NCBI GenBank assembly: GCA_017965445.1
Contig: JAGCPZ010000068.1
Location: 1-64,000 of the forward strand
Direction of reading: 5' to 3'
Length of the DNA: 64,000 nucleotides
DNA from: Fibrobacter sp.
GTDB taxonomy: Bacteria > Fibrobacterota > Fibrobacteria > Fibrobacterales > Fibrobacteraceae
Below are positions 18,492 through 53,805 of this stretch, piece by piece. The notes beneath the pieces are model-generated. The model was not told where the DNA came from. It ran no database searches and saw nothing but the letters and a program-made list of their open reading frames with translations. The translations under genes were made by a program, and so were the position numbers. Each line of letters begins with the position of its first letter. The first letter of the stretch is position 1.

Positions 18492-20291
18492 ATGCATATG
18501 AGTGAATATTTGCATAAATCATTCGGTCCCGTTATTCCTAAGGATTTTAAAAAGGATTATGGTGATAAGGGATTTTTGCTGGAGAATGGCAAGACGCTCC
18601 CCGCCCTCACCATCCGTTACGAGACCTACGGCACATTGAACGACGCCGGCGATAACGCCGTGTGGGTTTGTTCGCCGTTGACCGCCGATGCGCATGCGGC
18701 CGGCTGGTACACCGAAAATGACAAGAAGCCCGGCTGGTGGGACGAACTCATCGGACCCGGCAAAGCTATTGACACAGACCGTTTCTTTGTAGTTTGCAGC
18801 AACATTTTGGGCGGATGCAAGGGCACCACGGGCCCGGCAACAATCAACCCGCGCACAGGCAAGCCTTACGGCAGTTCCTTCCCCATCATCACGATTGGCG
18901 ACATGGTACACGCGCAGAAGGAACTTGCGGACGGTCTTGGTATCAAGGAATTCTACGGCGTCATTGGCGGATCCATGGGCGGATTCCAGGCGATGAAATG
19001 GGCTATTTACTACCCGGAACAGGTAAAGCGCATTATCGTCATTGCAAGTTCTCCGCGATTCTCCAGCCAGGCGCTCGGTTTCGAAGTGGTGGCCCGCGAC
19101 GTGATTACACAAGACCCGAACTTCCACGGTGGCGACTACTACGAAGAAGGCATGACGCGTCCGGACATCGGACTTGCGAACGCACGCAAGCTCGCGCATA
19201 TCACGTACCTCTCTGCCGTGGGCATGGAAAAGAAGTTCAAGCGCGCCCAGGACCAGGAAAACAAGAACCACGCGGTGACATACTCGACGCCGTACGACTT
19301 GAACTTGCCCATCGAAAGTTATTTACGTTATCAAGGAACAAAGTTCGTCGATCGCTTTGACGCCAACAGCTACCTGCATATCGCCCACGCCACCGATGCA
19401 TTCGACCTCGAAACGGAATACGGCAGCATCGAAAACGCGTTCAAGGACATCAAGGCAGAAGTCCTGAACGTGAACCTTTCGACGGACTGGCTGTTCCCGC
19501 CCCACGAGAGCCGACGCATCACGAGCGCGCTTTTGAACGACGGCAAATCGGTCACGAGTCTCGAACTTGACACGCAATTCGGGCACGACGGATTCTTGAT
19601 TGAAGTCGGCGAACTCGGTAAAGCAGTGGGCCGCTTCCTCGATTCCAAGATTATCCCGCAAAAAGGAACGCAAGCGGTTCCCGTATTCCACAACCAGAGC
19701 GACTTCGACCTTATCGGCAAGCTCGTCAAAGAAGGGAGCCATGTGCTCGACCTCGGCTGCGGCAGCGGCGACATGCTCGAATACCTTATCCGCAAAAAGA
19801 ACGTCACGGGATTCGGTATCGAAAAGAACATCAAGGGAATCCTCGACTGCCTCGAAAACGACGTACAAGTTATCCAGCGAGACTTGGACGAAAGCGGCAT
19901 TGCCGACCTCAAGGACGGAAGCTTTGATTATGCCATCATCAACCGCACGATTCAGGAAATCCGCGACCCGGTGGCACTCTTGAACGAACTATTGCGCGTT
20001 GCAAAGCAGGTCATCGTGACATTCCCGAATTTCGGACACTGGTCCGCCCGCGGAAGCCTCATGCTGCACGGACGCATGCCAATTTCCAAGGAGCTCCCCT
20101 ACGAATGGTACAACACGCCGAACATCCGCTTGCTTACAGTAAAGGACTTCTACACCTTGTGCCATAAGGAAGGCTTCAAGATTGAAAACTTGCACTTCCA
20201 GAACGAACACAAGATGAGCAAGTTCCTGACCGCCATCGGTCTTCCGAACTTCGGTGCAGAACACGTCATCGCAACTATATCAAAGATATAG
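18492..20291 (+). CDS. metX: homoserine O-acetyltransferase fused to MetW-like methyltransferase domain
   Basis: 599 residues in one frame. Residues 1-390 are a MetX alpha/beta-hydrolase: nucleophile Ser 161 in GGSMGGFQA, Asp in STDWLFPP, His in FGHDGF. Residues about 395-599 are a MetW-type SAM-binding domain (VLDLGCGSGDM, then FDYAIINRTIQEI). In proteobacteria metX and metW are adjacent separate genes; here they are one polypeptide. It acylates homoserine in methionine synthesis; the MetW part is thought to be needed for activity or regulation. Start is ATG 18492 or 18498, no ribosome site; TATATTTA ends 5-6 bp before the latter. Confidence 0.9.
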   Translation: MHMSEYLHKSFGPVIPKDFKKDYGDKGFLLENGKTLPALTIRYETYGTLNDAGDNAVWVCSPLTADAHAAGWYTENDKKPGWWDELIGPGKAIDTDRFFVVCSNILGGCKGTTGPATINPRTGKPYGSSFPIITIGDMVHAQKELADGLGIKEFYGVIGGSMGGFQAMKWAIYYPEQVKRIIVIASSPRFSSQALGFEVVARDVITQDPNFHGGDYYEEGMTRPDIGLANARKLAHITYLSAVGMEKKFKRAQDQENKNHAVTYSTPYDLNLPIESYLRYQGTKFVDRFDANSYLHIAHATDAFDLETEYGSIENAFKDIKAEVLNVNLSTDWLFPPHESRRITSALLNDGKSVTSLELDTQFGHDGFLIEVGELGKAVGRFLDSKIIPQKGTQAVPVFHNQSDFDLIGKLVKEGSHVLDLGCGSGDMLEYLIRKKNVTGFGIEKNIKGILDCLENDVQVIQRDLDESGIADLKDGSFDYAIINRTIQEIRDPVALLNELLRVAKQVIVTFPNFGHWSARGSLMLHGRMPISKELPYEWYNTPNIRLLTVKDFYTLCHKEGFKIENLHFQNEHKMSKFLTAIGLPNFGAEHVIATISKI

Positions 20292-20295
20292 TTGC

Positions 20296-20371
20296 GAGTT
20301 CCAAGTTACTAGTTACTAGAATATTTTTTCTAGATTCACTAGTAACTAAGAACTATTAACTAGTAACTAGG
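20296..20371. repeat. inverted pair of 7-bp-period arrays
   Basis: GTTACTAGTTACTAG at about 20305-20319 faces CTAGTAA, CTAAGAA, CTATTAA, CTAGTAA, CTAGGAT at about 20338-20371, the reverse-complement unit. An AT-rich spacer separates them. They fill the gap between the metX-metW and yicC genes. Confidence 0.8.
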
Positions 20372-20396
20372 ATGCGGCAAAGCCGCAAGAATCAAA

Positions 20397-22362: not shown

Positions 22363-25300
22363 TTACCTCGATATCAACAATTTCTGTTTTTTAGTCCAAG
22401 TTCTTGTTTTGGTGCTTGCTTTTTCTTCGTTCTGGGTATTCACCTTTGCTTCGCTTCGAACAACGTAGTGGTACAGCCCATTTGCCAGCAAGCGACCGTA
22501 ATTGTCTTTTCCATTCCAATGGGTTTCACCGGACTTTGCATCCTTAATGACCTTGACAAGGCGGCCATGCTGATTGTAAATGAAAATCGTGACCTTCGGA
22601 GACTGATCCCCTGCAAGATTCTTGAAGTAGAAAGTCGTGCCCTTCTTCCCCATCGGATTCGGGACATTGAACACATCCGAAAGCCCTGTCTGCATAGACT
22701 CGGTAATTTGGAGATTCACGGTTTTCGTAGAGATGTTACCCAACACATCTAGGGCGCGTACCCTAAACGTGTAATCTCCCGGCGGATACGCTTCGGTCGT
22801 TAGCGATTTGCGTGCAACAGCACGTTTAGACGTCTGTTCCAACAGCGGAGCCGGATGATACGGGTCTTCCAAACCAAAGATTTCAAATGTTATGCCTTCG
22901 TCGGCCTGTTCGCGGTAATCAAGCGCGGTTTCGTCTTCGATGACGATTTGCAGGCAAGCAGGCGTTTGGAACTTGACAAACTGGTTGTCGGCAAAACAAG
23001 ACGAAGCCCCGGCATAGCACGACTGGATGCAGATGTTTGGCGCAGTCTTGTCATTCAACGAATCCGCATAATTGGATACGCCAGAAATTTTAATATTCAT
23101 CCCGTGATAGCGTCCAACGGAAACATCGTTCGACGAATATGCCCACGCACGCATTTCCGCAAGAGAGTCTCCGATATTCAGTTTCTTCGGAGTCACGAAT
23201 TCCGTTTCAAAGCGCCCACCTGCTACAGGAATGACTTCTGAATAAATGAGCGTACCATCATATTTGACTTCAAGCGTGTCTCCAGCCGACCTTTGCGTCG
23301 GCAGGAGCTTGATATAGCGGCCTTCTCTAAGCGTCAATGCAATATTGCCATTCGAAAGTCCCGAAACCGTTCCAGACAACTTAATCTTATCCAAAGCCTT
23401 TATCGTATCTATCGGAGAATCGAGAGATATCTTGTAATTTGCAAAAGGCATCTGAATGACAGGTTCGCCAATCAAGACATAATGTTCCGTATTATAGACA
23501 ACATCTACATCTCTGATTCCAGAATCGGGATTTTTGGACATCATGTAGGCAACGCCGAGATAATTGCCATTAACAAGCAAAGCCTTACTGACAAAATTAT
23601 GGGCAAACTGTCTATTGGATTCAGCATAAGTTTCGCGAGCCGCACCGATAGCCGCAATAGCACCGACGTCCGGTTCAAGGACAAACGCTTCGGACAAAGA
23701 CCTGGAGTTACCTTCATCAAATCGGCCTACCGTACACGAGAAAGAATTCAATATCGTATAAGTTTTTTTATTCGAAAGTTTCGAAAGGTACGGAAGCTTT
23801 AGCAAGCCCTCGGATGCCCATGCGACCTTGGAGCCGTGCCCAAAATACATGGTCATCAAAGCGCCCTGGTTCATGATGTTCAAGAAGTCGTTCGTCGCTT
23901 CCTGTTTCTGTCCGGCGGCATCATACTCATAATCCAGCAAATAGACTTTTTTCTGGTTCCACCTGAAGCCCTGCGCTTTAGAAAGCGAGTCGATTAAATT
24001 TGCCAAGGACTCCTGATGACGCGTGTGTTCGGCATCGTCCTGAGCATTGCCGTTACGGGCATCATCGGCAGCAAACAAAAGCGTTGATTTCCATTCGCTA
24101 TGGTCGAACGTCCCGATTTCTTCGTAGTCCTTTGCCTTTTGGACGTATCCGTAAAATTCAGAAACAGACGAAACAGGCACTCGTCCCAAAGCCAAATCGA
24201 TGTCATACGCATCGCGACCTCGAACAACTTCACCCGAATCCAGAACGGCGAAGAAGTCTTCCGTTACAGAAGATTCCTTTTCGAACGGCGGCAAATAGTT
24301 CTTGCCAAGTTTTGTATTGAGTCCGCGATAGTCGTAATGACCGGCCCCGGCCAACAAGACAAAACGCAAATCTGGGCAAACACTTCTGGCGTATGCGATA
24401 AAGTTTCGTATAGCAACCGGAGACGGAGAACCACTGGTATAATGCCTGTAAATATTTTCTGCTGGAACGACCGCCGTCACCAACGGATTCGCCGCTTTTT
24501 CACTGGAGCGGAACACGGCTAGCGACTCTGCCGGAGCTAGAAATTCCTCTGGAGTTATAATCAGATATTCCGTCTTCGCCGAAATCTGCGAAAGTTTCTG
24601 CACTGCATTTTTCGAAGGTTCCATGATGCCTTGAACCGCCAATGTCGCCTTACGACGGTCCTTGTCGCGGAACAGCAAGTAACGGACATCATCGGATGCG
24701 CCAATGCTATCGACAGCGAAACCATTCGACACAGTCAAAAGTCCGATTTGTCTGAAGTTCTTGAACTTCATCACGCGAAGGTCATTGTTCTTCCCGACCG
24801 GAATTCGGATAACGCCTGTCGCAAATCCAGGCAACAGCCACTCCGAAGAATCAATCGCCACAGAAGAAGGATCCCATTGATATGCCACGGAATACCCGTC
24901 AAAGCGGTCGTACTGTTTCTGGTTTGGGAGCATTTTCAATTCGTACTTGTTGCCTGTTTTTGAAAGCGAATTGACAGCAAAAGCGAAGTTTCCGCCGGGC
25001 AATAACGTGCCATCGGACCAGAATTGGGTTTCACCATTTACAGCAATGATAAAACGAATGAACTGCATTCTATAGTCGTAATCTCTGATTGAAAATGTGT
25101 CCGCTGTTGATTGGTCGGTCCCCGACGACGACTTGAGCGTGCGATAAGGGAAAAACGAATATGCAACATAGCCTTTCCCGCCCGAGACTAGGCCAGGCAA
25201 GTCCGTTGTCGATTGGAACCTCAAGTCTTGCGCGGAATACGAGTTTGTATCGGACCTGGCATGCCATTTCCAGAACCATTCCTTACCGGTAGCGCGTTCC

Positions 25301-30709: not shown

Positions 30710-30860
30710 AACCAAACAAGGCGAGCGACGCGACCAACGCAGTTGGGCATGGCCGAGCCGAATGGTTGGTACATGAGCAAAGCGAATGTACAAAGACGAG
30801 AGAGGAAAGAATTTTCATAGAATCAGTGCTTGTCGAGCCCTAAGCTCTTATTCTACACAT

Positions 30861-30909
30861 GGCTCACGGCTCATTGCTCATTGCTCATGGCTCACGGCTC
30901 ATTGCTCAT
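30861..30909. repeat. 7-bp-period array (GGCTCAT type) covering the ruvX stop codon
   Basis: Seven in-phase 7-mers: GGCTCAC, GGCTCAT, TGCTCAT, TGCTCAT, GGCTCAC, GGCTCAT, TGCTCAT. The ruvX stop (30899-30901) and its last two codons lie inside the array. Confidence 0.88.
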
Positions 30910-31309
30910 CGAACCAGCGTTGCAAAATGATTGCGGCGGCGGTGCGGTCGATAATGGCCTTGTTCTTCTGCTTTTTCTTTTTACTCAGGTAAGACGTGAA
31001 TTCCTGCGCCTGAACGCTGGAATACGATTCGTCCTGCGTGTGGATTTTCATCCCCGGGAAGCGGAGTGCCAGATCCTTGATAAAGGCCTCCACCACCACA
31101 TTTTTTCCGTCCTTGCGGCCATCCGGGTGGTACGGCATCCCGACCACGAACTCGTCAATTTTGTTGATGCGCACAAGCTGGTCCAGTCGCTCGAACAGAT
31201 TGGTCGTCTTCTGGTCAATCGTCTCTCTCGAGAAGGCCATTTTAAGTTCGGAATCGCCAAAAGCGACCCCGACCCGATGTTCTCCGTAATCCAAAGCCAA
31301 GTAATTCAC
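30899..31309 (-). CDS. ruvX: Holliday junction resolvase-like protein RuvX/YqgF
   Basis: About 136 residues from GTG 31309, which gives the family N-terminus (M)NYLALDYGEHRVGVAFGD. A GTG at 31354 would overlap the divergent typA promoter. DYG, the VVGMPYHPDG segment and DRTAAAIIL near the end match the RNase H-like fold of YqgF, needed for 16S rRNA maturation and proposed as a resolvase. The C-terminus is set by a 7-bp-period array. Confidence 0.9.
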   Translation of the reverse strand: MNYLALDYGEHRVGVAFGDSELKMAFSRETIDQKTTNLFERLDQLVRINKIDEFVVGMPYHPDGRKDGKNVVVEAFIKDLALRFPGMKIHTQDESYSSVQAQEFTSYLSKKKKQKNKAIIDRTAAAIILQRWFDEQ

Positions 31310-40232: not shown

Positions 40233-40921
40233 TGGCTTCGATGGATGAACTCAAGAAAGCTGCAGGTGTTCGCGCTGCGGACATGATCAAGGACGGAATG
40301 ACGGTCGGTCTCGGGACCGGCAGCACGGCGGCCCACATGGTGAACCGACTCGCCGAGCGCATCAAGACCGAAGGCATCCACGTCGTTGGCGTTTCGACCA
40401 GCTGGAGCACGACGCTCCAATGCCGTAGCCTCGGCATCCCGCTCAAGGAAATGGGCGAAGTCTCCCACCTCGACATGGTTATCGACGGCGCCGACGAAAT
40501 CGACCCGCAGCGTAACCTCATCAAGGGCCGCGGAGCCGCGCACCTCCTCGAAAAGATAGTCGCCTCCATGACGGACAACTACGTGATTATCGCCGACTCC
40601 GGCAAGGCCGTGCAGCAGCTCGGCACCAAGTTCGCCGTACCGCTCGAAATCATCCCGGGCGCTATCGCCGTCGTCACCGAACGCGTGAAAAAACTCGGTG
40701 GCGAAGTCAAGGTGCGCATGGGAGCTCCAGGCAAGGACGGCCCGGTCATTAGCGACTCAGGCAACCTCATCGCCGATGCGAAGTTCGCCCCCATCGCAGA
40801 CCCGGACAAACTCGCCCGCGACCTCGAACATATCGTGGGCATTGTCGGTCATGGCCTGTTCATCGGCATGGCAACGAAAGTCATCCTCGCCGACGAAGCG
40901 AAAGGATTGATAGAGTTTTAA
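40232..40921 (+). CDS. rpiA: ribose-5-phosphate isomerase A
   Basis: 229 residues from ATG 40232, which overlaps the slyD stop and has AAAGGAG 8 bp upstream; an ATG at 40223 lies inside that site. GLGTGSTAAHM, DGADEID and KGRGAAHLLEKI are the RpiA signatures (general base Asp and phosphate loop). It interconverts ribose-5-P and ribulose-5-P. Translationally coupled to slyD. Confidence 0.95.
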   Translation: MASMDELKKAAGVRAADMIKDGMTVGLGTGSTAAHMVNRLAERIKTEGIHVVGVSTSWSTTLQCRSLGIPLKEMGEVSHLDMVIDGADEIDPQRNLIKGRGAAHLLEKIVASMTDNYVIIADSGKAVQQLGTKFAVPLEIIPGAIAVVTERVKKLGGEVKVRMGAPGKDGPVISDSGNLIADAKFAPIADPDKLARDLEHIVGIVGHGLFIGMATKVILADEAKGLIEF

Positions 40922-40926
40922 TATTA

Positions 40927-40961
40927 AGTTATTAGTTAATAGATACTAGTTACTAGTGATT
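40927..40961. repeat. 7-bp-period array (AGTTACT type)
   Basis: Five in-phase 7-mers directly after rpiA: AGTTATT, AGTTAAT, AGATACT, AGTTACT, AGTGATT. Confidence 0.85.
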
Positions 40962-42201: not shown

Positions 42202-43236
42202 ATGTCTCGTTTACGCGTTTTGGTTTTGATGGGCGGTCCATCTACTGAACATGATGTTTCTGTCGTCAGCGGCACCGGCGTTGTGCGCGCCATGGATCCG
42301 GAAAAGTACAACATCCACCCCGTGCTCATCGATAAAGACGGCACTTGGCATTGGTCTTCCCGCGAACTCTCTCCGTACCAGAAAACGAATTTTTCCGTCA
42401 ACTATTTCCATAGTCTTGAAGGAACAGCAGCAAACAAGAAGAAATCCCCGGCGCTTTCGGAACTTCCGTCTGCCGATATCGCGTTCCTTGCGTTGCACGG
42501 CAAATGGGGCGAAGACGGCCACATCCAGGCGATGCTCGAAAACTGGAATATTCCATACACGGGCTGCGGTCTCCTCGCTTCGGCCTTGGCAATGGACAAA
42601 ATCAAGACGAAAGAAATCTACCGCGCCAACAACATCCCGACTCCGCCATACCGCGTCATCTGGAAGCACGATTTTACCGGTGACACCCTCGTGAACGTCT
42701 CGGATGAACTCGGATTTCCATTGGTCATCAAGGACCCGCTGGGAGGTTCTTCCATCGGCATCGGCATAGCAAAGAATCTTGACGAAGCCGGAAAAATTGC
42801 TCAGGACTTGTTCAAGGATACGAACCGCCTGCTCTGCGAAAAGTTCATCGCCGGCGGCGAAGCCAGCTGCGGCTACATCGAAGGCGAAAAGCCTTTGCCG
42901 CCCACCGAAATGCGCATGACGACCCGCGAATACTTCGACTTTGAAGCGAAGTACAACGGCGAATGCCAAGAAGTCACTCCGGCAGAATTTGCACCGGAAC
43001 TCACCGCACGCATCCAGGAACTCGTGAAAAACGCCCATTACGCTTTGGGCGGCGCGGGCTACAGCCGCACGGATGTCCGCATCACCAAGGACGGTGAACT
43101 ATTCGCCATTGAAACGAATACGCTCCCGGGCATGACTCCGACGTCGCTGTTGCCGCAACAGGCTGCTTGCGTCGGCATCACCTACAGCCAGCTTATCGAC
43201 CTCATCATCGACAAGAGCCTGGAGATAAAGCGTTAA
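42202..43236 (+). CDS. ddl: D-alanine--D-alanine ligase
   Basis: 344 residues. N-terminal LMGGPSTEHDVSVVSG, ATP-grasp loop KDPLGGSSIGIG and C-terminal ETNTLPGMTPTSLLPQQA are characteristic. It makes D-Ala-D-Ala for peptidoglycan. AAAGAGG upstream. Confidence 0.96.
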   Translation: MSRLRVLVLMGGPSTEHDVSVVSGTGVVRAMDPEKYNIHPVLIDKDGTWHWSSRELSPYQKTNFSVNYFHSLEGTAANKKKSPALSELPSADIAFLALHGKWGEDGHIQAMLENWNIPYTGCGLLASALAMDKIKTKEIYRANNIPTPPYRVIWKHDFTGDTLVNVSDELGFPLVIKDPLGGSSIGIGIAKNLDEAGKIAQDLFKDTNRLLCEKFIAGGEASCGYIEGEKPLPPTEMRMTTREYFDFEAKYNGECQEVTPAEFAPELTARIQELVKNAHYALGGAGYSRTDVRITKDGELFAIETNTLPGMTPTSLLPQQAACVGITYSQLIDLIIDKSLEIKR

Positions 43237-43239
43237 GCC

Positions 43240-43388
43240 GCTTCGCGGCTTTGGGCTATGAGGTATGAGCGCGGACCTTACGGTCCTATGAGGTATGAGT
43301 TTTTTAACTCTTAGCCCAAGCCTCAAAGCGGAGCGAGCCGAGAGGCACAACGTGCCGACCCCATACCCAAAATTCAAAAAGCCGGGCA
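43240..43388. repeat. mosaic of small repeats between ddl and tsaB
   Basis: GCCGCTTCGCGGC hairpin, GGCTATGAGGTATGAGC steps repeated (CTATGAGGTATGAG at about 43254 and 43287), and CAAAGCGGAGCGAGCC. Similar in style to 37985-38187. No gene seen. Confidence 0.6.
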
Positions 43389-43437
43389 ATCAACCAACAA
43401 CCAATGACTATTGACCAACGACTATTGACCAATGACC
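43389..43437. repeat. 7-bp-period array running into the tsaB start codon
   Basis: Seven in-phase 7-mers: ATCAACC, AACAACC, AATGACT, ATTGACC, AACGACT, ATTGACC, AATGACC. The last unit contains the tsaB ATG (43432). Confidence 0.88.
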
Positions 43438-44064
43438 AACTTCGACTTAATAGTAGATACCTCCCGCAAGGGAATTTCGATGGCACTTTGTGCGGACTCC
43501 GTTTACGAAGAAATCGTGGAACCGACAGGCAAAGGCGAAATTCTAAGCGCTAGCTTGGACTCGCTATTGAACAAAGTCGGAGCAACGCTCGATGACGTAA
43601 AGCGAGTCATGGTGACAGTCGGTCCGGGTTCGTTCAGCGGACTGCGCACGGGAGTTGCGTTCTGCCAAGGGCTTTGCTTTAGCGGCAAGCGCAACCTATA
43701 TGGCGTAACGACGTTGCAGGCACTCGCCTGTTTTTCGGGAGTCGCCGACAACGATACGGCGGTCGTCATCCGTGCACGCAACGGATTCTGGTACTTGCGG
43801 TTGGATGGCATCGAAAGCTTTATCGAAACCGCAGAAATTGTTGAACGGCTCAAGGCTAGTTCCGTGAAGAACGCCGTCGTCGATGCGGCTGCATTCGCCG
43901 ACGAAACGCTCACTGCAATTTTCAAGGACAAGGGAATTGCAACAACGCTCGATACGGACAAGCCGCTCAGCATGTGGTCTCCGCTTTTTGAAACGGTAAA
44001 GCCTTCGCTTATTCAAGAAGCGAACTACATCCAGCCATCGTACTTCGAGAAGTTGAGTAAGTAG
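43432..44064 (+). CDS. tsaB: tRNA threonylcarbamoyladenosine complex subunit TsaB
   Basis: 210 residues, normal size. LIVDTSRKGISMAL at the N-terminus and VTVGPGSFSGLRTGVAFCQGL are the TsaB signatures (ASKHA fold). With TsaD/TsaE it makes t6A37 on tRNAs. The start codon is the last repeat unit of one 7-bp array and the stop codon lies in the first units of the next, and no ribosome site is visible. rimI follows, a usual neighbour. Confidence 0.93.
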   Translation: MTNFDLIVDTSRKGISMALCADSVYEEIVEPTGKGEILSASLDSLLNKVGATLDDVKRVMVTVGPGSFSGLRTGVAFCQGLCFSGKRNLYGVTTLQALACFSGVADNDTAVVIRARNGFWYLRLDGIESFIETAEIVERLKASSVKNAVVDAAAFADETLTAIFKDKGIATTLDTDKPLSMWSPLFETVKPSLIQEANYIQPSYFEKLSK

Positions 44065-44119
44065 TAGGAAGTAGGAAGTAGGAAGTAGGCAGTAGGAAGT
44101 AGGCGGTAGACTGTAGACT
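44057..44119. repeat. 7-bp-period array (GTAGGAA type) covering the tsaB stop codon
   Basis: Nine in-phase 7-mers: GTAAGTA, GTAGGAA three times, GTAGGCA, GTAGGAA, GTAGGCG, GTAGACT twice. The stop TAG of tsaB (44062-44064) is inside. Confidence 0.92.
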
Positions 44120-44139
44120 GTTGAAAACAAGAAGAATGC

Positions 44140-53612: not shown

Positions 53613-53616
53613 TTTT

Positions 53617-53728
53617 AGACGAGAGACGAAAGACGAGAGATTATTGTGATTAGTGATTAGATTTCAGTGGTTAGTGGTTGGTGGTTAGGATTTATGAATT
53701 AAGAATTAAAAATTAAGAATAAAAATTT
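53617..53728. repeat. long 7-bp-period array, 16 units
   Basis: In-phase 7-mers drift from AGACGAG, AGACGAA, AGACGAG, AGATTAT through TGTGATT, AGTGATT, AGATTTC, AGTGGTT (twice), GGTGGTT, AGGATTT to ATGAATT, AAGAATT, AAAAATT, AAGAATA, AAAATTT. Phase is unbroken for 112 bp. It begins 4 bp upstream of the radical SAM start codon. Confidence 0.92.
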
Positions 53729-53742
53729 CTTTTTTTATTTTT

Positions 53743-53805
53743 CATCTTTAATTTTTCATTTTATTATCCTGTTTACTAACCACTGTTTACTGCTTACTAC
53801 CTACT
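53743..53805. repeat. opposed 7-bp-period array covering the lipoprotein stop codon
   Basis: Nine in-phase 7-mers ending GTTTACT, AACCACT, GTTTACT, GCTTACT, ACCTACT; on the minus strand AGTAGGT, AGTAAGC, AGTAAAC, AGTGGTT, AGTAAAC and so on. The lipoprotein stop (53801-53803) is inside. It faces the other array across an AT-rich centre. Confidence 0.88.

Follow-up and report, generated by a model that had tools for sequence, protein, structure and literature searches.

Seven-base-pair repeat arrays at the ends of tsaB and other genes in Fibrobacter

The tsaB gene and the period-7 arrays around it

How does a gene come to have its start codon in one tandem repeat and its stop codon in another? 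The question is raised by tsaB in a 64 kb stretch of DNA from the gut bacterium Fibrobacter, here called the window, whose source genome comprises 79 contigs and is 71.88% complete. The gene (43432-44064, + strand) encodes 210 amino acids, and TsaD-like (E 6e-16) is the sole Pfam match of its product. Upstream of it lies ddl, the gene for D-Ala-D-Ala ligase (42202-43236, +), which delimits the spacer between the two; a GNAT acetyltransferase gene is its neighbour on the other side.

A sequence-only reading of the window had placed the ATG and the TAG of tsaB in two different 7-bp arrays, and both the sequence and TRF confirm this. The 5' array consists of CCAATGA, CTATTGA and CCAACGA units and occupies 43387-43439 on the + strand (TRF row 43393-43440). 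The start codon lies in its last unit, at 43432-43434, in the context ...CTATTGACCAATGACC. Because an in-frame TGA is found two codons 5' of this ATG, a longer start of tsaB is impossible. The 3' array, with units AGTAGGA, AGTAGGC and TGTAGAC, runs from 44056 to 44124 on the same strand (TRF row 44056-44116), and the TAG at 44062-44064 lies in its first units (AGTAAGTAGTAGGAAGTAGG...). Besides the CAATGAC array, the 195-nt ddl-tsaB spacer (43237-43431, +) contains TATGAGG units and short GC palindromes.

The same reading went on to say that the arrays limit the gene exactly at both ends. This is overstated, and the direction proposed here is the reverse: selection on the gene limits the array. 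More generally, we think it probable that array DNA grows or is replaced where spacers are free of constraint, and that selection on genes sets the edges of the arrays. Array edges do lie at stops and starts; we infer that selection is the cause.

That a single gene should have an array at either end is probably a coincidence. Among 259 sampled genes, 3 have a 5' array, 11 have a 3' array and only tsaB has both, where 0.13 such genes are expected (P ~0.12); gene starts in this sample come from a simple ORF caller and are less certain than stops. The case of tsaB thus falls within the simplest explanation of such contact, that arrays are common in short spacers and hence some of them overlap gene ends by chance, and the rarity of contact on the start side (3 of 259 genes) agrees with it as well. 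Whether chance also accounts for stop codons is taken up below.

Arrays of this kind can be detected with a local scan, in which 28-position windows with at least 67% match are sought at each lag separately. At lag 7 the scan finds 11 stretches in the 64 kb, all 11 non-coding and none coding. The identical scan at lags 5, 8, 10, 11 and 13 gives no stretch in the window, and a Markov shuffle likewise gives none. Period 7, together with its multiple 14, therefore stands out among the lags scanned locally. In 52 loci from across the genus (474 kb), 66 lag-7 stretches are non-coding and 4 coding. Plain lag autocorrelation of whole intergenic DNA gave a lag-7 excess in the window but hardly any in G044, a more complete relative, and was replaced by local detection. 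The 400 kb sample of that relative (L083-L102) has 14 non-coding and 5 coding stretches. This is far fewer arrays per kb, 14 non-coding ones in 400 kb against 11 in 64 kb, so the array load may differ among species.

Unrelated families occur within one genome, among them AGTAGGA, TAGTTAC, TTAGTGG, AGACGAA, GAGCAAT and CAATGAC. Probes for AGTAGGA give 88 matches at 37 places in the window's genome (1 match for the reversed control), and a 23-base probe of the 5' array of tsaB finds one further place there with up to three mismatches. Differences in unit number were met between species only (at most 92% DNA identity) and not between strains. AGACGAA arrays in several loci (L181:17000, L184:11757, L189:1865, L191, L201 and L203) carry differing short palindromes at one fixed point, TAGACGAAAGAACG[palindrome]TATAGACGA. 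Small hairpins appear to have been repeatedly inserted there, or altered by a templated process.

Gene ends across the genus

Evidence for how arrays come to meet genes can be provided by observing one locus in many species. Matches to tsaB were obtained in 60 of 61 genomes by protein search and in 76 of 80 by DNA search, the window's own genome included. A first set comprised 75 distinct tsaB loci, with 14 left out by a motif rule. A looser motif gave 83 distinct loci, with none dropped by the motif and identical starts merged, and this is the set described here.

The spacer between ddl and tsaB is compact in 30 of these loci (20 nt or less, the genes sometimes overlapping) and filled in 48 (at least 40 nt); 2 are intermediate and 3 unusable. 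On the tsaB tree the two states interchange 17 times, and at least 11 of these changes are forced by starred branches. Spacer types also track the first codons of tsaB, so some of the changes may be due to recombination. An example of two sister loci with different states can be found in L009 and L010, one empty and the other filled.

An array is detectable in 42 of the 48 filled spacers. It comes within 6 nt of the tsaB ATG in 31 of the 42 and equally close to the ddl stop in 20. About a dozen unrelated families take part, for example CAATGAC, CTAACCA, CTAAGTT/CTAAGCT, CTAGTAA, AACTCAG, CACATTC, ACCTACC and ATTCATA, and in many filled spacers a purine-type array is followed by a short GC palindrome and then by a complementary array. 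The 5' array of tsaB in the window is also present in G019, with point changes and an identical spacer length of 195 nt. Three loci (L110, L030 and L016) have spacers of 10-19 nt in which the ATG is preceded by no more than one or two CAATGAC-like units; these units are possible seeds, or possible remnants, of the array in the window.

Despite this turnover, the ends of tsaB hardly move. In 82 of 82 loci the protein ends 2 or 3 residues beyond YFEK. The expectation that gene ends would shift in phase with unit number did not hold: the array at the 3' end counts about 8 units in L001, 6 in L002 and 5 in L003, and the stop occupies an identical codon in all three. A 7-bp unit with a stop can be read through for about 18 nt at most, and so gene ends need not follow the number of units. 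Orthologues with the same terminal codons and no array, which had been proposed as a sign that the overlap is chance, do exist: L007 and L110 at the start, and L011, L013 and L110 at the stop position, where the codon is TAA. Others, however, have different arrays flush at the same points, which argues that the contact is not mere chance.

Small changes at the ends of tsaB are nevertheless found. Where the window has AGTAAG as the final two sense codons, its relatives L002 and L003 have AAAACG. In four relatives the start codon lies within the array-like CTAACTATG, where compact relatives have ATGACC, and the start has moved by one codon. In these loci, L129, L159, L133 and L136, the start reads CTAACTATGTTC, against ATGACCTTC or ATGACCTTT in compact relatives.

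Other genes of the window also end in or beside arrays. A GGCTCAT/TGCTCAT array (GAGCAAT/GAGCCGT) at 30850-30914 (- strand) encloses the stop of ruvX (30899-30901), as had been claimed. The similar claim concerns a lipoprotein gene. Its stop (53801-53803, -) lies in a weaker 7/14-bp stretch, TGTTTACTAACCACTGTTTACTGCTTACTACCTAC; neither TRF nor the lag-7 scan flags this at the stop itself, and the flagged array ends at 53767, some 34 nt away. The spacer between this stop and a radical-SAM gene (53613-53800, -) contains nested complementary arrays, GTGGTTAG / CTAACCAC and AATTAAG / CTTAATT.

The lag-7 scan adds two stops, at 20291 and 40921, to those listed before. A TAGTTAC-type array (40917-40961, +) begins at the stop codon of rpiA, which ends at 40921. 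Complementary TAGTTAC and GTAACTA arrays form the arms of a hairpin (20290-20379, +) in the spacer 3' of the stop at 20291. The open reading frame that ends there (18498-20291) encodes an alpha/beta hydrolase domain with a MetW domain after it, apparently as a fused methionine-biosynthesis protein.

Across the genus, the C-terminus of RpiA is IEF* in all 30 loci examined, and from the next base onward there are several unrelated types of array, or none. The lipoprotein ends in EEK* in all 4 close loci examined, followed by two different types. The end of RuvX varies by one or two residues in close relatives and by more in distant ones; some loci have arrays of several families and others have none.

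The clearest case of array DNA that has become coding is a DsbD-like gene (L304:3-1526 and L341-L370; Pfam DsbD_TM and Thioredoxin_7), at the end of which one of the AGTAGGA places is found. Its tail was read in 30 of 66 matching genomes. In 17 of these 30 loci the last 3-5 codons are array DNA, although the tail VGK* of L368 is doubtfully array-coded, and the families differ between species. The unit GTAGGAA is read as VGSRK, VGRRK or VGSR; GTAGAC as VDSRQ or VDGRL; and ACTAGTTACTAG as VTSY, VTSN or ATSY. Most of the other tails are TGK, TK or SAK. The tree requires 4 changes between an array tail and none. The window's genome has TAG as the stop, with more units beyond it. Three genomes (G019, G006 and G038) have kept a VGSRK or VGSRE tail with no array behind it.

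The earlier alternative, between growth of arrays as far as the coding sequence and recruitment of array material for gene ends, is thus not an either/or, since both occur. The first is seen in the nearly fixed ends of tsaB next to a spacer that is empty or holds unrelated arrays, and in the preserved ends of RpiA and the lipoprotein. The second is seen in the DsbD-like gene and, at tsaB, in the terminal codons and in the start that moved by one codon.

The mechanism that probably produces both outcomes is as follows. Arrays of 7 bp invade Fibrobacter spacers and turn over there, often in the form of a purine-type array that a short GC palindrome separates from the complementary array. They would be made at the level of DNA, probably through slippage combined with template switching between inverted copies. 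Such DNA could spread, be replaced and be lost freely until it met bases under selection, and its edges would be left at stops and, within operons, at starts.

At the 3' end the consequences follow from the unit itself. A 7-bp unit that contains TAG, TAA or TGA presents a stop in every frame within 21 nt, so that an array entering the end of a gene replaces the last few codons only and supplies the stop. What sets the gene end is the phase at which the frame runs into the array, and not the number of units; gain or loss of distal units therefore leaves it in place. At the 5' end, an array would pass through the start only where its unit carries, or mutates to, an in-frame ATG, examples being CCAATGA and AACTATG at tsaB. 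The tsaB gene would then be one gene that has undergone both events. The 37 places of AGTAGGA count against this account, since they call for a route of dispersal that slippage alone does not give; so does the restriction of differences in unit number to comparisons between species.

A bolder reading would make heptamer arrays a genus-wide source of gene ends. They would repeatedly overwrite the last codons with tails that are specific for the family (VGSRK, VDSRQ, VTSY), and would supply stops and, in some genes, starts. Protein ends would thereby evolve as selfish or slippage-made repeats are exchanged, and the occurrence of identical units in unrelated phyla would point to a shared generating mechanism with a sequence preference. 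This is put forward tentatively, as something we doubt more than we believe.

Contact with gene ends and its possible causes

Touching gene ends is the rule for these arrays. In spacers other than those that flank tsaB, 20 of 47 array edges are no more than 3 nt from a stop, whereas random placement within the same spacers would give 10.7 (P 0.00025). In 17 of the 47 the edge lies at -16 to 0 nt.

The AGTAGGA family provides a second comparison. One of its 37 places (L326) was dropped for an unusable gene call. Where the neighbour to the left of the array is a 3' end, 14 of 18 places overlap the stop or start no more than 5 nt from it, the one at tsaB in the window among them. Where it is a 5' end, only 2 of 18 lie within 5 nt and none overlaps (P 0.0001). 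The largest overlap is -28 nt; array units spell VGSRK* over 18 nt of it.

With stop-side contact at about twice its expectation, and with 14 of 18 places in the AGTAGGA set, chance contact is largely refuted for stop codons. For starts, 31 of the 42 array-bearing spacers reach that of tsaB, though the species are related. As an explanation of the pattern in general, chance is accordingly improbable.

Three further associations gave little. The stop codon TAG is weakly linked to arrays (18 of 39 against 281 of 891, P 0.08), somewhat more clearly in the AGTAGGA set (8 of 14 against 67 of 265, P 0.014). In tests that also left aside the spacers flanking tsaB, arrays are not significantly rarer between divergent genes (36/350 against 7/115, P 0.20), and an avoidance of such promoter-bearing spacers is not claimed. 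A purine polarity of arrays relative to genes, suggested by eye, was not borne out in co-directional (P 0.26) or convergent spacers (P 0.22). The palindrome is identical on both strands, and so polarity relative to genes cannot be read from it.

If arrays meet gene ends too often for chance, they might do so because they function in expression. On the stop side they would provide stops in three frames. On the start side they would form an unstructured leader or a site for protein binding, and complementary arms would fold, either to bring a stop and the following start close to each other and so couple translation, or to stabilise the 3' end of an mRNA. Arms that are flush with the ddl stop (20/42) and the tsaB start (31/42) in many species would suit such a role. 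So would the filled spacers that score below their shuffles (z < -2 in 29/42), as would the TAACTGA arrays of Beggiatoaceae, most of which are placed directly 5' of start codons (PMC4679880). Yet 30 of the 83 loci do with a compact spacer, sister species differ, and the sequences are unrelated among clades.

Folding of the two strands also bears on this. The sample contains up to 40 spacers per class, and its genus class includes the ddl-tsaB spacers. Among co-directional spacers with arrays, 22 have a coding strand that folds better than its reverse complement and 32 have one that folds worse; among those without arrays the numbers are 55 and 26 (P 0.002). This comparison supports an origin of arrays at the level of DNA rather than of sense RNA. 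Of the features of an intrinsic terminator, a sense-strand hairpin with a U tract after it, folding was scored, and array spacers have no strand preference in it. In the filled ddl-tsaB spacers the sense strand has no advantage in folding over the antisense strand (20 against 22), unlike in array-less spacers, and the idea of a hairpin bridge for translational coupling was lowered for this reason. Taken with both sides of the evidence, a function in expression appears unlikely.

Median fold z-scores for spacers with and without arrays are -2.37 and -2.17 in G000, and -2.58 and -1.39 in the genus. Spacers with arrays are not clearly better folded, and the case for hairpins therefore depends on inspection of the arms. 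Array-less spacers also score below shuffles, and the z-score is thus no evidence for arrays in particular.

Alternatively, the units may be a mobile element, MITE or REP-like, whose terminal inverted repeats are the heptamer arrays and which inserts at stop codons. REP and BIME sequences are dispersed palindromic repeats of enterobacteria and pseudomonads that have one conserved stem and no 7-bp arrays. Like these, the Fibrobacter units are dispersed palindromic DNA 3' of genes. One family occupies 37 places, 14 of 18 of its 3'-end places are at the stop, complementary arms flank a core, and the sister loci L009 and L010 differ in being empty or filled, all of which could be expected of an element. 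However, cores and arm lengths differ between copies by eye, and the short GC palindromes likewise change, again by eye, from copy to copy, with no conserved stem seen in this way. The complementary arms, which recall a MITE, vary in length and family, and no target-site duplication was seen by eye at the junctions compared. The many unrelated unit families have period 7 alone in common. Insertion of an element is slightly less likely still than a function in expression, and growth or replacement of array DNA up to bases under selection is the explanation retained here.

In phase-variable simple sequence repeats a change of unit number switches reading frame or expression. As regards the reading frame the arrays differ from these, for unit number varies between species while the tsaB stop stays fixed.

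The both-ends case of tsaB is ordinary; what is worth following is the contact that arrays make with gene ends in general, and the protein tails that they encode. When a gene takes its protein tail and stop codon from a 7-bp array, repeat DNA becomes coding by a route that can be counted. A unit that is not divisible by three and contains a stop limits the damage, and keeps the gene end fixed while the length of the array changes. With about 80 Fibrobacter genomes, and one locus that is empty or holds one of about a dozen families, the birth, replacement and loss of arrays can be traced directly.

Heptamer repeats in other bacteria

The heptanucleotide repeats of cyanobacteria are known as STRR. 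Tandem repeats of 7 bp have been described from several groups, and among the closest to those of Fibrobacter are the TAACTGA direct repeats that MacGregor (2015, PMC4679880) described from marine Beggiatoaceae, cyanobacteria and Bacteroidetes. According to that paper, many arrays end just 5' of a start codon, and 13-14 sets overlap the stop of the upstream open reading frame. It is argued there that stops in all frames cap the overlap at 18 nt or less, and that insertion succeeds at the periphery of the protein. Head-to-tail intergenic arrays of 7 bp, contact with starts and stops, and an overlap of stops limited to about 18 nt are all found in Fibrobacter too. The differences are that TAACTGA is one dominant unit, with related heptamers rare, whereas Fibrobacter has many families with the period alone in common; and that in Fibrobacter the arrays often form complementary arms, turn over at a single locus from species to species, and spell differing protein tails.

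A second example can be found in the GGGAATC and GGGGATT repeats of Xanthomonas and Nostoc (PMC4692102). As described in the portions available of that paper, these are also heptameric, intergenic and near open reading frames, and vary in length and sequence among related species. They are G-rich quadruplex formers with one motif type per organism, unlike the Fibrobacter arrays, and capture of starts or stops does not appear in those portions. The same portions cite an over-representation of heptamers in bacteria, the idea of polymerase slippage, and three tandem heptanucleotides of Calothrix.

The arrays of Fibrobacter are a strong variant of these known heptamer repeats and not a new system. 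No description of heptamer arrays in Fibrobacter was found in the literature searched, the coverage of which takes in few subscription journals.

Some units are shared with other phyla. The CAATGAC array of the window matches arrays on plasmids in 11 records, 7 of them from Nostoc or Fischerella, with up to 89.6% over 48 bases in Nostoc (best E 7e-9). On a plasmid of Nostoc sp. C052 (L371:23866-23979), a CAATGAC array fills nearly all of the 103-nt spacer between two permease genes, and holds the stop codon of the first at its start. The variant unit CTATTGA occurs there together with CCAATGA, as in the tsaB array. Cyanobacteria being another phylum, the STRR and Nostoc arrays may share CAATGAC with Fibrobacter by descent, transfer or convergence alike.

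Searches of plasmids with other queries gave less. A non-array spacer had no match, nor had an AGTAGGA-family array, a result of little weight since the search masks low-complexity DNA. A TAGTTAC query matched Borreliella only (E 0.06) and was set aside.

That CAATGAC recurs in Nostoc and Rhizobium, and CCACTAA in Pseudoalteromonas, makes the origin of heptamer arrays testable. A plasmid of Rhizobium sp. N324 (L340:690-752) carries a CAATGAC array that resembles the one at tsaB. Pseudoalteromonas donghaensis has long intergenic arrays of period 7 with the units CGCACCT and CCACTAA (L372:19113-19420 and 22831-23053), and the CCACTAA array occupies part of a spacer.
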